A stretch of DNA of 48,335 nucleotides from Desulfocapsa sp. GTDB taxonomy: Bacteria > Desulfobacterota > Desulfobulbia > Desulfobulbales > Desulfocapsaceae. The notes below the pieces were generated by a model. It was not told the origin of the DNA. It saw nothing but the letters and a program-made list of their open reading frames with translations, and did no database searches. A program made the position numbers and the translations under genes. Of the stretch, positions 4,747-44,940 are shown piece after piece. Each line of letters opens with the position of its first letter. The first letter of the stretch is position 1. The stretch is from positions 1-48,335 of the forward strand of contig JANTGG010000009.1 in assembly GCA_024763035.1 (NCBI GenBank), read 5' to 3'.

Positions 4747-4972
4747 TTTTCCCCCGGTTAATTGGTGTGGATAACTCCGTTTCCTTTTTTTCGACTGCCG
4801 GAAAAAGGAAAACGTGTGATCTCCTTCCCCCGTCACAATCTCCAGCTCGTTGACAACAGACATTCCAGGAGCTTGAACTTCCTGCAACCATCCATGCCTC
4901 CCCTCTCTAGAAAAAAATAAATCCAGAAAGATTCAAAAAGCTTAGTATGTTTTATACTATTAAGCAATGACT

Positions 4973-5012
4973 AAAATGGTCGATTATGGGACAAAATGGT
5001 CAAAATTGGGAC
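4973..5012. repeat. Two tandem 20-bp direct repeats
   Basis: AAAATGGTCGATTATGGGAC (4973-4992) is followed directly by AAAATGGTCAAAATTGGGAC (4993-5012), matching at 16 of 20 positions, and then by a partial AAACC. The period of about two helical turns would place bound proteins on the same DNA face. The array ends 12 bases before the -24 element of a sigma-54 promoter, so an activator site is possible. Confidence 0.6.
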
Positions 5013-5024
5013 AAACCAAAAATA

Positions 5025-5039
5025 TGGCACTAATTTTGC
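5025..5039 (+). promoter_or_regulatory. Sigma-54 (RpoN) promoter without an obvious gene
   Basis: TGGCAC (5025-5030), five bases, then TTGC (5036-5039) match the -24/-12 consensus at every fixed position, with the required GG-to-GC spacing. A start near 5051 is expected. No plausible plus-strand gene follows before the 3' end of the opposing nucleotidyltransferase gene at 5298. Confidence 0.55.
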
Positions 5040-5297
5040 TTGAATTGAAATCAGAAGAGCAATAGACTGTCAAACAGATAGTTGCGTACAAAATCAGGTC
5101 GTTGCACCAGGTAGCACTGGCAGATTCCTTAAAACCCATGATCCAGTGGGAGGCGATCTTCAAAGGTGGAGAAAACAGCCACCTTCACGCGCGGAGCAGT
5201 GCTCAAAAAAATCATCACCGGCAAGGGACCAGGGAAGACGAATCTTTAAATCCCTGCCTAAAAACAGTCTTCGTTTCTTTGTGCCCATTGCCCCCTC

Positions 5298-6413
5298 TTA
5301 ACACTTTGTTTTTGCGTACACTTTCAACCATCGGAGCAAATGTGCAGGATGCTGCACCAGTCTGCACCATAGAAGAGAAAAGCGCCGACCGCCGCCGTAA
5401 TACATACGCATCCACCACGGTGGCGGACACAGGGTATCGTACACTCTATCTGCCAGTCCCTTTCCGGATTCTTTGCACTTTTTCACAGGAAGCGGCCAGC
5501 CTCTGAAAGGTTCTCCTGCTCCTCCAGCAGCAGAAATCTCACCGCAACCCAATCTCTGTGAAAGAGAATCTCTCCAGGGTGTTATACAATGGAACAGTCT
5601 CAAGGCATTGAACAACTGCGGATACTTGCCGATGATCTTTTCCCAGTCCAGCTCTTCCTCATTTGCCTCCACAAGACCTATAATATCCGCTGCTGATATC
5701 AGCTTACAGGAAGTGTAGGTGAGCGGGGCATGAAAGCCATGCTGAAAAAGATGCGAGAGCATCTCTTCGTTTGCAAATCTGTATGCCGTCATCCCTCCGT
5801 TTACCTTGAAGGGTATGGCATTTGCCCAAGATTCTGCGAAGGAGAACTGCTCATAATAGGGGGGGAGCCTGGGGAATAGACCGTGATGAAGCTCGATCCA
5901 TACCTCAAATCCGCCAATCACGATGCAGAGCGGTGGAAGATGGTAATAATCCTCTGGCAACTCTTCCGTGGAAGCCGACAGGCCTTTTTCCAGTAAGAGT
6001 GCATGTGCCCGAAAGGCATCTTTTTTTTCAAGAAACAGATCAATATCGCTCATGGGCCGCAGACCAATCTGCGGATACAATGTCTGACTGAGGGCAGCAC
6101 CTTTAAGAACAAGGGCGGGAAGTCCCTCCCGTTCCAGCATATCGAGCACAACCTGCATCCCCTGAATACGGTGTTCATTTTCACGCTGATGACGCATGCT
6201 CAAAAATCGAAGACCGCGAAGAAACCCAGCGGGAATATCTGCATCCAAAGCACTCAAATGTCTGTGCAGAAGAGGCGAAAGCCCATGCTGCTCGGAAATC
6301 GGCAGGAGATCGTCCCACCGGCAACAGTCCGCACAGGCTGCCCGGAGCTGATCCTGCTGAACAGGATGTGGTCTGATGCAGGCACTTAATGTAAGAATGG
6401 GAGATATTGCCAT
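5298..6413 (-). CDS. Nucleotidyltransferase family protein (PF14907-like)
   Basis: A 371-aa member of the uncharacterised nucleotidyltransferase family often found near polysaccharide or peptide-modification genes. The signature is a VLKGAALSQTLYP segment followed by GLRPMSDIDLFLEK, where the Asp-x-Asp pair would bind the catalytic metal. Helical regions with many His and Trp follow. The ATG at 6413 is preceded by a weak AGAAAAA site; a TTG five codons further upstream (6428) is the alternative. It stands alone, without the usual PqqD, sulfotransferase or glycan partners, and shares direction with the LysR gene 110 bases upstream. The substrate is unknown. Confidence 0.8.
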   Translation of the reverse strand: MAISPILTLSACIRPHPVQQDQLRAACADCCRWDDLLPISEQHGLSPLLHRHLSALDADIPAGFLRGLRFLSMRHQRENEHRIQGMQVVLDMLEREGLPALVLKGAALSQTLYPQIGLRPMSDIDLFLEKKDAFRAHALLLEKGLSASTEELPEDYYHLPPLCIVIGGFEVWIELHHGLFPRLPPYYEQFSFAESWANAIPFKVNGGMTAYRFANEEMLSHLFQHGFHAPLTYTSCKLISAADIIGLVEANEEELDWEKIIGKYPQLFNALRLFHCITPWRDSLSQRLGCGEISAAGGAGEPFRGWPLPVKKCKESGKGLADRVYDTLCPPPWWMRMYYGGGRRFSLLWCRLVQHPAHLLRWLKVYAKTKC

Positions 6414-41905: not shown

Positions 41906-43193
41906 CTATTGCTCCAGTAAAATTCTCCACAATCTCAACCAGACTCTTCTCCAGAGGATTTACCAGACGGGTGGTTATAACCGTATCCCCGCTGTTCAGC
42001 CCGTCACTTACGTAAGCATTATTGTTCTGCACCCGGGCGACCTTCACCGGTACAGTATGCAGACGGTTTTCCTTCACCACATAGACCGTATCCTCAAAGC
42101 TCACTGCCCGACGCGGCAACTCAACCACCCGGGTCATCGGCTTTCCCGGAATCTCCACGCGACAAAACATTCCGGCAACCAGGGGCATGGAAATATTCTT
42201 GTTCTGGAACTGTTTGGAATCCACATCGATAACAACCTTCACCGTCCGTGTTTTTTCATCAAAGGAACTGATCCGGGCCAGGGTTCCCATGGCTTGATTT
42301 TCTTCATTTTCAGTCCAGCTCACCTTACAGGGAACCGGGGTTACATCAGAAAACCATGCCATTGAGACAGGCCCGGAAGACTTTGACCTGCCGCCAAACC
42401 CCAACCAGCGAAAGGCATCACTACCATCAAGGGGAACTTCAATCTGCAGGGTGGAATCGTCTGCCAGCCCAAGGACAACCTTGCCGGGAGCAACATATTG
42501 CCCTTTTTCAATATTCTTTTTGGTAATGCGGCAGGTAAACGGGGCAGTGACCCGACAACGCTCCAGCTTGATTTCGGCACGTGTCATCATCTGTTTCACC
42601 TGTGCCAGCTGATTGGCAACATTGTTTACGGCTTTTTCCGCCTTCTCAACACCGGCACGGGTCCCCACCCTGTTCTTCTCATAGAGCGTGGTCAACCGCT
42701 TTAATTCCTTTTCGGCAAGATCCTTATCCCTTTGCAGTATGCCGTAGCGACTCTCACTGCTCTCGTACTCCGCCTGATAATCCCGGTCATCAATGGCAAA
42801 AAGCAATTCACCCTTATTGATAACAGCACCAGTCTGCAGCCTGGGATGAACCTCAACCACAGTACCTGCCACCTCAGCCGCAATATCCACGGTACGTGTT
42901 GAGACCAGCTCACCATGCCCCTCTATAATGACCGGAACAGAACTGAAAACTGCGGTAGCAACCTCCACCTTCAGGGGTCTTTCAATGATTTCAGCCTGAG
43001 CCGGCACTTTTTTCTGACTCTTTAAAAAACGAAATCCACCAAAACCTGCTACCAGGATAACGAGACAGACAAGGACTCGAACAACGGTCCCCCTCGTGGT
43101 GGTCCGCTCTTCCGGATTCTTTTTCTTTCCATCCCAGGGCAACAGACCGTAACGGTCCATATCCTCCAGCCAGACAGGCTCCTTCCTGCTCAT
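41898..43193 (-). CDS. RND efflux periplasmic adaptor (MFP/HlyD family)
   Basis: A 431-aa adaptor that links the RND pump to an outer-membrane channel. A cytoplasmic N-terminus of about 35 residues is followed by one membrane helix (VVRVLVCLVILVAGFGGF). The lipoyl-like half (VVEVHPRLQTGAVINKGELL), the long alpha-hairpin (about 120-195) and the beta-barrel region (APFTCRITKKNIEKGQYVAP) come next. It has no lipobox, so it is held by the helix. It overlaps marR upstream by 4 bases and the permease downstream by 8. Confidence 0.94.
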   Translation of the reverse strand: MSRKEPVWLEDMDRYGLLPWDGKKKNPEERTTTRGTVVRVLVCLVILVAGFGGFRFLKSQKKVPAQAEIIERPLKVEVATAVFSSVPVIIEGHGELVSTRTVDIAAEVAGTVVEVHPRLQTGAVINKGELLFAIDDRDYQAEYESSESRYGILQRDKDLAEKELKRLTTLYEKNRVGTRAGVEKAEKAVNNVANQLAQVKQMMTRAEIKLERCRVTAPFTCRITKKNIEKGQYVAPGKVVLGLADDSTLQIEVPLDGSDAFRWLGFGGRSKSSGPVSMAWFSDVTPVPCKVSWTENEENQAMGTLARISSFDEKTRTVKVVIDVDSKQFQNKNISMPLVAGMFCRVEIPGKPMTRVVELPRRAVSFEDTVYVVKENRLHTVPVKVARVQNNNAYVSDGLNSGDTVITTRLVNPLEKSLVEIVENFTGAIDE

Positions 43194-44034: not shown

Positions 44035-44156
44035 GTAGGAGCTCGCCCCTGCGAGCGATTCAAGGTGTTGCCAGACCTGGAAAATCGCTCGCAAGGGGCG
44101 AGTTTCTACAGTTCCATTGTGCATTTACCTGAGCTTCAGTGGTAATCATGAAAAAC
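44035..44156 (+). repeat. REP-like palindromic element, copy B
   Basis: GTAGGAGCTCGCCCCTGCGAGCGATT (arms at 44035-44060) is matched by the inverse AATCGCTCGCAAGGGGCGAGTTTCTAC (44083-44109), giving a stem of about 26 bp around a 22-base loop. A TGTGCATTTACCTGAG...GGTAATCATGAAAA tail follows. The same core and tail recur, more worn, at 11.76 kb. The pattern resembles REP/BIME elements spread by RAYT transposases; no such gene is in the window. Confidence 0.75.
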
Positions 44157-44310: not shown

Positions 44311-44463
44311 ATGACCAGTCAGGAAGCCATCAGAATTCTTATGCTGAGCCCCATATACTTTCAGTTAACTCCCAGCAACCGGAAACAGCTGATCCTCGAA
44401 TACTGCGCCCATTTTGCCAAGGTCTGCAAACAGCAGGGCGGGCAGGAAAACAGCAAGAAGTGA
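44311..44463 (+). CDS. Small ORF, 50 aa, unknown function
   Basis: The ORF encodes MTSQEAIRILMLSPIYFQLT, continuing PSNRKQLILEYCAHFAKVCK and a polar tail QQGGQENSKK. A very strong ribosome site, GGAAGGAGGAAGAGAG, precedes the ATG; an in-frame ATG six codons earlier overlaps that site and was not used. The first 35 residues look like two amphipathic helices, and the SQEAIRILMLSP opening is of a kind seen in small conserved proteins of Desulfobacterota. I give no function. It lies between the REP-like element and the sigma-54 promoter. Confidence 0.6.
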   Translation: MTSQEAIRILMLSPIYFQLTPSNRKQLILEYCAHFAKVCKQQGGQENSKK

Positions 44464-44591: not shown

Positions 44592-44606
44592 TGGCACGCC
44601 GATTGC
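44592..44606 (+). promoter_or_regulatory. Sigma-54 (RpoN) promoter of the 62-aa ORF
   Basis: TGGCAC (44592-44597), five bases, TTGC (44603-44606), then T: perfect match to the -24/-12 consensus, including the G after TGGCAC. Transcription should start near 44618, about 70 bases before the ATG at 44691. No enhancer-binding-protein gene adjoins it. Confidence 0.75.
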
Positions 44607-44690
44607 TTAACAATAAACCAGAGACGGTGAAATTATTACTACCTGCGAACAGAATGTAAGCCGGTACAACCATTAACGAGAGGAAAAAAA

Positions 44691-44879
44691 ATGAGCCAGG
44701 CAACCACCCAACTCCGACCATCAGGCAAAGGCTTTGTTCTCGCAAAACTCGGCAAGGGACTTCCTTCAATGAGACGACTGGTAGACACTTACACCAGTGC
44801 AGACCGAAAGACATACATCAAACTTGATGGCGAACTGACCCCGCTTCTGCCGGAACATGTATTTCTTCCCGGCAACTAA
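44691..44879 (+). CDS. Small protein (62 aa) under a sigma-54 promoter, unknown function
   Basis: The protein is basic at its N-terminus and compact: SGKGFVLAKLGKGLPSMRRL, then VDTYTSADRKTYIKLDGELT, ending PLLPEHVFLPGN. It has no Cys, no signal and no membrane helix. A GAGAGGAAAAAA ribosome site is just upstream, a perfect RpoN promoter lies about 70 bases before the gene, and a terminator hairpin follows, so it forms a complete single-gene unit. It matches no family I know. The sigma-54 control suggests expression on a specific signal (nitrogen, stress, motility or envelope). The ORF could in part be the vehicle of a regulatory RNA. Confidence 0.65.
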   Translation: MSQATTQLRPSGKGFVLAKLGKGLPSMRRLVDTYTSADRKTYIKLDGELTPLLPEHVFLPGN

Positions 44880-44892
44880 GTTTACAAATACA

Positions 44893-44940
44893 CGGAACCG
44901 GCGTTTACGATCAATACCCGCCGGTTCCGCCGAATTTTAT
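44893..44940 (+). terminator. Terminator of the 62-aa gene
   Basis: CGGAACCGGCG (44893-44903) and CGCCGGTTCCG (44919-44929) form a perfect 11-bp stem with a 15-base loop, followed by CCGAATTTTAT. It lies 14 bases after the stop and also faces the end of the opposing J-domain gene. Confidence 0.75.

Follow-up and report, generated by a model that had tools for sequence, protein, structure and literature searches.

Comparative sequence analysis identifies the unit at positions 44,592 to 44,940 of the window (the whole 48,335-nucleotide stretch of Desulfocapsa DNA that was analysed) as a real, conserved, sigma-54-controlled gene for a tiny protein in Desulfocapsa. What is new here is the likely activator of this small gene. 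The unit looks like a sigma-54 gene driven from a downstream enhancer that overlaps its stop codon. What was an orphan small ORF becomes a circuit open to experiment, whose promoter, activator, binding sites and second target are all named. Such an enhancer is invisible to regulon searches confined to regions upstream of promoters, and the circuit offers an initial way into the study of a one-component sigma-54 regulator that occurs across Desulfobulbales. The features are as follows.

44592-44606, plus strand: sigma-54 promoter TGGCACGCCGATTGC (TGGCAC-N5-TTGC), exact match
44618-44690, plus strand: untranslated leader including the ribosome-binding site (RBS) GAGAGG, from the sequence, with the start inferred from the -12/-24 geometry
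44691-44879, plus strand: ORF for a conserved basic 62-aa protein, a predicted small beta-barrel (homologues, dN/dS, AF2 models)
44870-44886, no strand: predicted activator site 1, CGGCAACTAAGTTTACA, 19.9 bits, ranked second in the 48 kb, same place in congeners
44893-44909, no strand: predicted activator site 2, CGGAACCGGCGTTTACG, 14.2 bits, ranked third in the 48 kb
44893-44929, plus strand: 11-bp inverted repeat, possible terminator hairpin (sequence and fold)
5025-5039: other exact sigma-54 site
Contig C2:73233-74762 (L144:8225-9769): activator orthologue in the window's genome, 630 bits, GAFTGA

A conserved small gene behind a sigma-54 promoter

An earlier note, made from the letters alone, had described a perfect sigma-54 promoter, a leader of about 70 bases, a good ribosome site, a 62-codon ORF with no known motif and an 11-bp terminator, and all of these except the last stand as described. 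The promoter is exact, with its GG (-24) and GC (-12) at a 10-bp spacing, features that are kept in the homologues; the exact TGGCAC-N5-TTGC pattern occurs twice in the 48-kb window against 0.14 expected, and none of 100 shuffles contained two. The inferred start at about 44618 gives a leader of about 73 nt, and GAGAGG precedes the ATG at 44691. The 11-bp repeat is present as well, with arms CGGAACCGGCG (44893-44903) and CGCCGGTTCCG (44919-44929). However, its loop is 15 nt long, its tail is just CCGAATTTTAT, and the hairpin is absent from the list returned by a terminator scan that allowed loops of 3-8 nt, so that a terminator role is plausible rather than clear and the repeat is a modest candidate.

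Homologues of the 62-aa protein were recovered by protein and profile searches in 30 of the 93 genomes, and 12 of the 18 genera, of a single GTDB family, that of Desulfocapsa and its kin, and none was found beyond that family among 258 genomes of the class. Pfam (window protein, up to E=1), NCBIfam, PHROGs and PDB-sequence searches returned no profile match, single family members gave weak profile matches only (best E 0.067), and by these comparisons the protein is a member of an undescribed family. A phage or plasmid origin was also searched for, with no match. The alignment of 31 members has invariant G12 and L30 and nearly invariant G14, F15, R28, Y42 and H56. Where dS is measurable, dN/dS is 0.02-0.12, which indicates purifying selection, and mismatches at codon positions 1, 2 and 3 amount to 0.28, 0.15 and 0.55, respectively. 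In 25 of the 29 testable loci, a strong sigma-54 site lies ahead of the ORF; among shuffled regions, 13% score as high. Because the site is kept and the ORF is conserved under purifying selection, the unit is best read as a protein gene. The note had named, as grounds for abandoning its view, a promoter conserved without the ORF or conservation of neither; the two prove to be conserved jointly, which supports its suggestion of a specific sigma-54-regulated small gene. Its description of the gene as isolated holds in the window's genome but not in most relatives outside Desulfocapsa.

Two AF2 models of the protein (pLDDT 81-82) contain five strands and little or no helix. Foldseek returned no significant structural relative for these models, among SH3-like and Hfq/Sm-like small beta-barrels or elsewhere (best E 0.87 and 1.7, TM about 0.3-0.5). 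The protein is basic (pI 9.9) and hydrophilic. We would hazard the guess, itself doubtful, that this basic protein, rich in beta structure, acts in the cytosol as a regulatory effector of the activator's response, perhaps binding RNA or protein.

It is improbable, in our estimate, that the product that matters is an RNA, whether the ORF is then incidental or the transcript has a dual function of which the ORF is one half. Such a reading draws on three genera (g2, g4 and g35) in which the ORF is followed by a single-copy hairpin whose 12-bp base is constant and whose tip is C-rich, on genome G056, which keeps promoter and hairpin where the ORF is absent, and on the sigma-54-dependent ncRNAs that lie beside activators in Desulfovibrio (PMC4641369). 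However, this type of hairpin is in no Desulfocapsa genome searched, the window transcript folds no better than shuffled sequences (z -1.2), and the ORF is under strong purifying selection at the protein level. The RNA reading is thus partially supported, and only outside Desulfocapsa. Rfam gave no match at this unit at the gathering score.

The hairpin of the three genera is a candidate small RNA in its own right. It has the form TCTGYATTGA...TTTCARTGCAG with a C-rich tip, is mostly followed by a T run, and was seen at L055, L056, L058, L061, L078, L081 and L150; a dispersed repeat was ruled out by its single copy in each of the seven matching genomes. In three other genera (L079, L080, L082 and L063), a different long structured element, strongly similar among these loci, lies 3' of the small ORF (GCCCCCC..GGGGAYGTGGAGTG ... 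CACTCCACRTCCCC). In the window, the 5' neighbour of the unit is a small ORF at 44311-44463 (50 aa from the ATG at 44311, strong RBS GGAAGGAGGAAGAGAG) without a Pfam match; a 68% identical homologue in the same order was found in L067 only. Further upstream, at 44036-44110, an imperfect palindrome TAGGAGCTCGCCCCTGCGAGCGATT...AATCGCTCGCAAGGGGCGAGTTTCTA of REP-type appearance occurs in one copy in the window.

A candidate activator

The enhancer-binding protein that the note had asked for has a candidate, found through its linkage to the small gene in relatives and through co-occurrence. At all 16 loci outside Desulfocapsa that have enough upstream DNA, the small gene and the same neighbour gene are divergent. 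The neighbour encodes a protein of about 515-538 aa where complete, and the two that were scanned contain GAF, sigma-54 AAA+ (PF00158) and Fis-type HTH (HTH_8) domains in Pfam. At several of the non-Desulfocapsa loci, a gene for a class III nucleotidyl cyclase (Pfam-confirmed in three) is convergent and downstream. The genome of the window (209 contigs, 92% complete) contains one clear orthologue of the activator, at 630 bits against 267 for the next bacterial enhancer-binding protein, and it is unlinked to the small gene. Its neighbour there is a gene for a group-2 sigma-70 factor, which has a sigma-54 promoter of its own.

The activator is present in 30 of the 30 genomes that carry the small gene. 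Across the GTDB family, both genes occur in 30 genomes, the small gene alone in none, the activator alone in nine and neither in 54 (Fisher 1e-16, with counts that ignore kinship of the genomes); some congeners have the activator without the small gene. Given linkage in relatives together with co-occurrence, we take the activator as cognate, and the GAF-AAA+-Fis one-component protein is the likely activator of the small gene.

Palindromes at the stop codon

A motif search over 50 activator-linked regions, from which the small-gene loci of Desulfocapsa were excluded, yielded TGTAAAC-N3-GTTTACA at 17.4 bits compared with about 7.1 in shuffled sets. Two predicted sites lie at the end of the unit in the window: site 1 covers GGC AAC TAA, the two final sense codons of the ORF plus its stop, and site 2 lies 23 bp beyond it, overlapping the 5' arm of the hairpin. 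Relative to the inferred start, they are at about +261 and +284. Sites of at least 14 bits occupy the same ORF position at seven congeneric loci (L065-L070 and L072), L064 and L073 have weaker site pairs there, and L075 has a 17.7-bit site 21 nt beyond the stop. In the 386 kb of 30 loci combined, 40 sites score at least 14 bits, and about 36 of these are no more than 800 bp away from the small gene. In other genera, the sites are upstream, between the small gene and the activator gene. With sites upstream there and at the stop in Desulfocapsa, the control element appears to have changed place when the small gene and the activator parted.

Score alone is no proof of function, since the top-scoring site of the window (42614-42630, 20.7 bits) sits within an HlyD-type gene and has no conserved counterpart in L067; it was rejected as an enhancer. 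A looser enhancer pattern, searched in three genomes, matched about as often as its reversed control, and nearly all the extra matches examined were single and lacked a convincing promoter, many being intragenic. The exception (G018:C138, L246:1595-2010) has tandem palindromes and a sigma-54 site followed by a 648-aa protein with ten CXXCH motifs (Pfam cytochrome families).

The palindromes might instead belong to a different regulator, or the activator might bind them on behalf of a neighbouring promoter, given that they sit 3' of the gene, overlap the possible terminator and are followed by a convergent dnaJ-like gene. We consider this unlikely: the motif at the stop codon is identical in type to that in the divergent regions beside the activator gene, it accompanies the small gene even though the neighbouring genes differ among congeners, and the small-gene copies that have no sigma-54 site (L071 and L074) also lack the palindromes, with no strong site at the stop. 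Less likely still, and in our view very improbable, is that the sites are a by-product of a conserved Gly-Asn-stop C terminus rather than binding sites. Site 1 is indeed partly coding and the Gly-Asn-stop ending is common to related proteins; yet site 2 is wholly non-coding, as is half of site 1, the protein of L075 ends without Gly-Asn and still has its site just past the end, and outside Desulfocapsa the protein ends are different and the sites upstream.

Two further observations concern the gene copies. L071 and L074 both have GGGTATTTWTACCGAT upstream of the small ORF, which suggests another regulator, and genome G013 contains one copy of each kind, with and without the sigma-54 site and strong enhancer.

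Other genes linked to the activator

In Desulfocapsa, the divergent neighbour of the activator gene encodes a sigma-70 factor, and in most cases the two genes flank a sigma-54 site. The divergent region of the activator in genome G000 has a 20.4-bit palindrome and a sigma-54 site, TGGTTCACTTTTTGC, ahead of the sigma factor, and the second palindrome there scores low (9.1 bits). The sigma factor of the window's genome has 361 aa and regions 2, 3 and 4. Close relatives (66-77% identity) were found only in Desulfocapsa, and a more distant relative (about 47%) is present in every genome of the family that is at least 90% complete. Against the RpoS equivalog of NCBIfam, the sigma factor scores 229 bits, below the cut-off of 378.7. 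Elsewhere in the order, in families other than this one, the divergent partners of the activator gene are pseudopilin genes with an N-methylation motif or, alternatively, 59-66-aa ORFs with a signal-like N terminus. As a lead only, these genes and the CXXCH protein of G018 suggest a cell-surface or electron-transfer theme for the regulon. Nitrogen limitation, for which the note had proposed to measure the transcript, finds no support as the trigger: the activator belongs to the one-component GAF class, and its linked genes in relatives encode a sigma factor, pseudopilins, small peptides that look exported and, in a single genome, a multihaem cytochrome.

The hint of an RpoN regulon shared with the site at 5.0 kb is not supported either. 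None of the window's top matches to the enhancer motif lies near that site, and the site has tandem repeats of its own; it seems to belong to another activator. These are two direct repeats of approximately ATGGTCRAWWWTGGGACA, about 22 bp apart, which precede the site (region 4960-5300), and no ORF with an evident RBS follows directly. The site may drive a non-coding RNA that some other activator controls.

Proposed circuit

Sigma-54 RNA polymerase would wait at the promoter of the small gene, while the one-component activator, encoded elsewhere in the genome, would bind the two 17-bp palindromes about 261 and 284 bp past the start, loop back across the ORF and open the promoter once its GAF domain switches. 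A second target of the same activator would be the divergent sigma-54 promoter of the genus-specific group-2 sigma-70 factor. The promoter, the selection on the ORF, the co-occurrence of the activator and the motif with its position were computed; to these we add, by inference, the start site, binding, looping and control of both targets by this activator. Taken as a whole, the model of a sigma-54 gene, an unlinked GAF-AAA+-Fis activator, downstream stop-codon palindromes and a shared sigma-factor target is, in our judgement, probably correct.

A bolder version, which we put forward tentatively and hold to be possible rather than probable, is that the enhancer is written into the gene's own stop codon. 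The palindromes would have kept control after the gene left the activator gene, and DNA binding would be part of what holds the Gly-Asn-stop of Desulfocapsa in place. Throughout Desulfobulbales, a response of the cell surface or of electron transfer would then stand under the activator, and the protein would be a new kind of small cytosolic effector in it.

Comparison with known systems

NifA and NorR are GAF-AAA+-HTH activators, and NifA sites have the form TGT-N10-ACA. The activator described here has the same domain order (NorR: PMC2941729), but the spacing is N11 and the linked genes belong neither to nitrogen fixation nor to NO detoxification. The RpoN-RpoS cascade of Borrelia likewise places a sigma-54 promoter ahead of a second, sigma-70-type sigma factor (PMC3037356); the corresponding cascade here is a putative one, and the sigma factor, unlike RpoS of Borrelia, is a genus-specific group-2 paralogue that falls below the NCBIfam RpoS cut-off.

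The one-component sigma-54 activators of Desulfovibrio vulgaris have GAF or PAS domains and are often divergent from their sigma-54 targets, some of which are ncRNAs; several of their motifs consist of TGT/ACA half-sites 9, 11 or 12 bp apart (PMC4641369), and the motif found here, TGT-N11-ACA, resembles them. In that study, motifs were sought upstream of the targets (PMC4641369), whereas the sites in the window lie downstream, across the stop codon, and the target here belongs to an undescribed family. For position, the parallel is FlrC, whose sites at the class III flagellar genes of Vibrio are typically downstream of the transcription start and are true enhancers (PMC6504787). The sites predicted here are also downstream of the start; however, FlrC is a two-component regulator of flagellar genes, whereas the present activator is a GAF-type one-component protein with predicted sites about 260-285 bp past the start, at the very end of the ORF.
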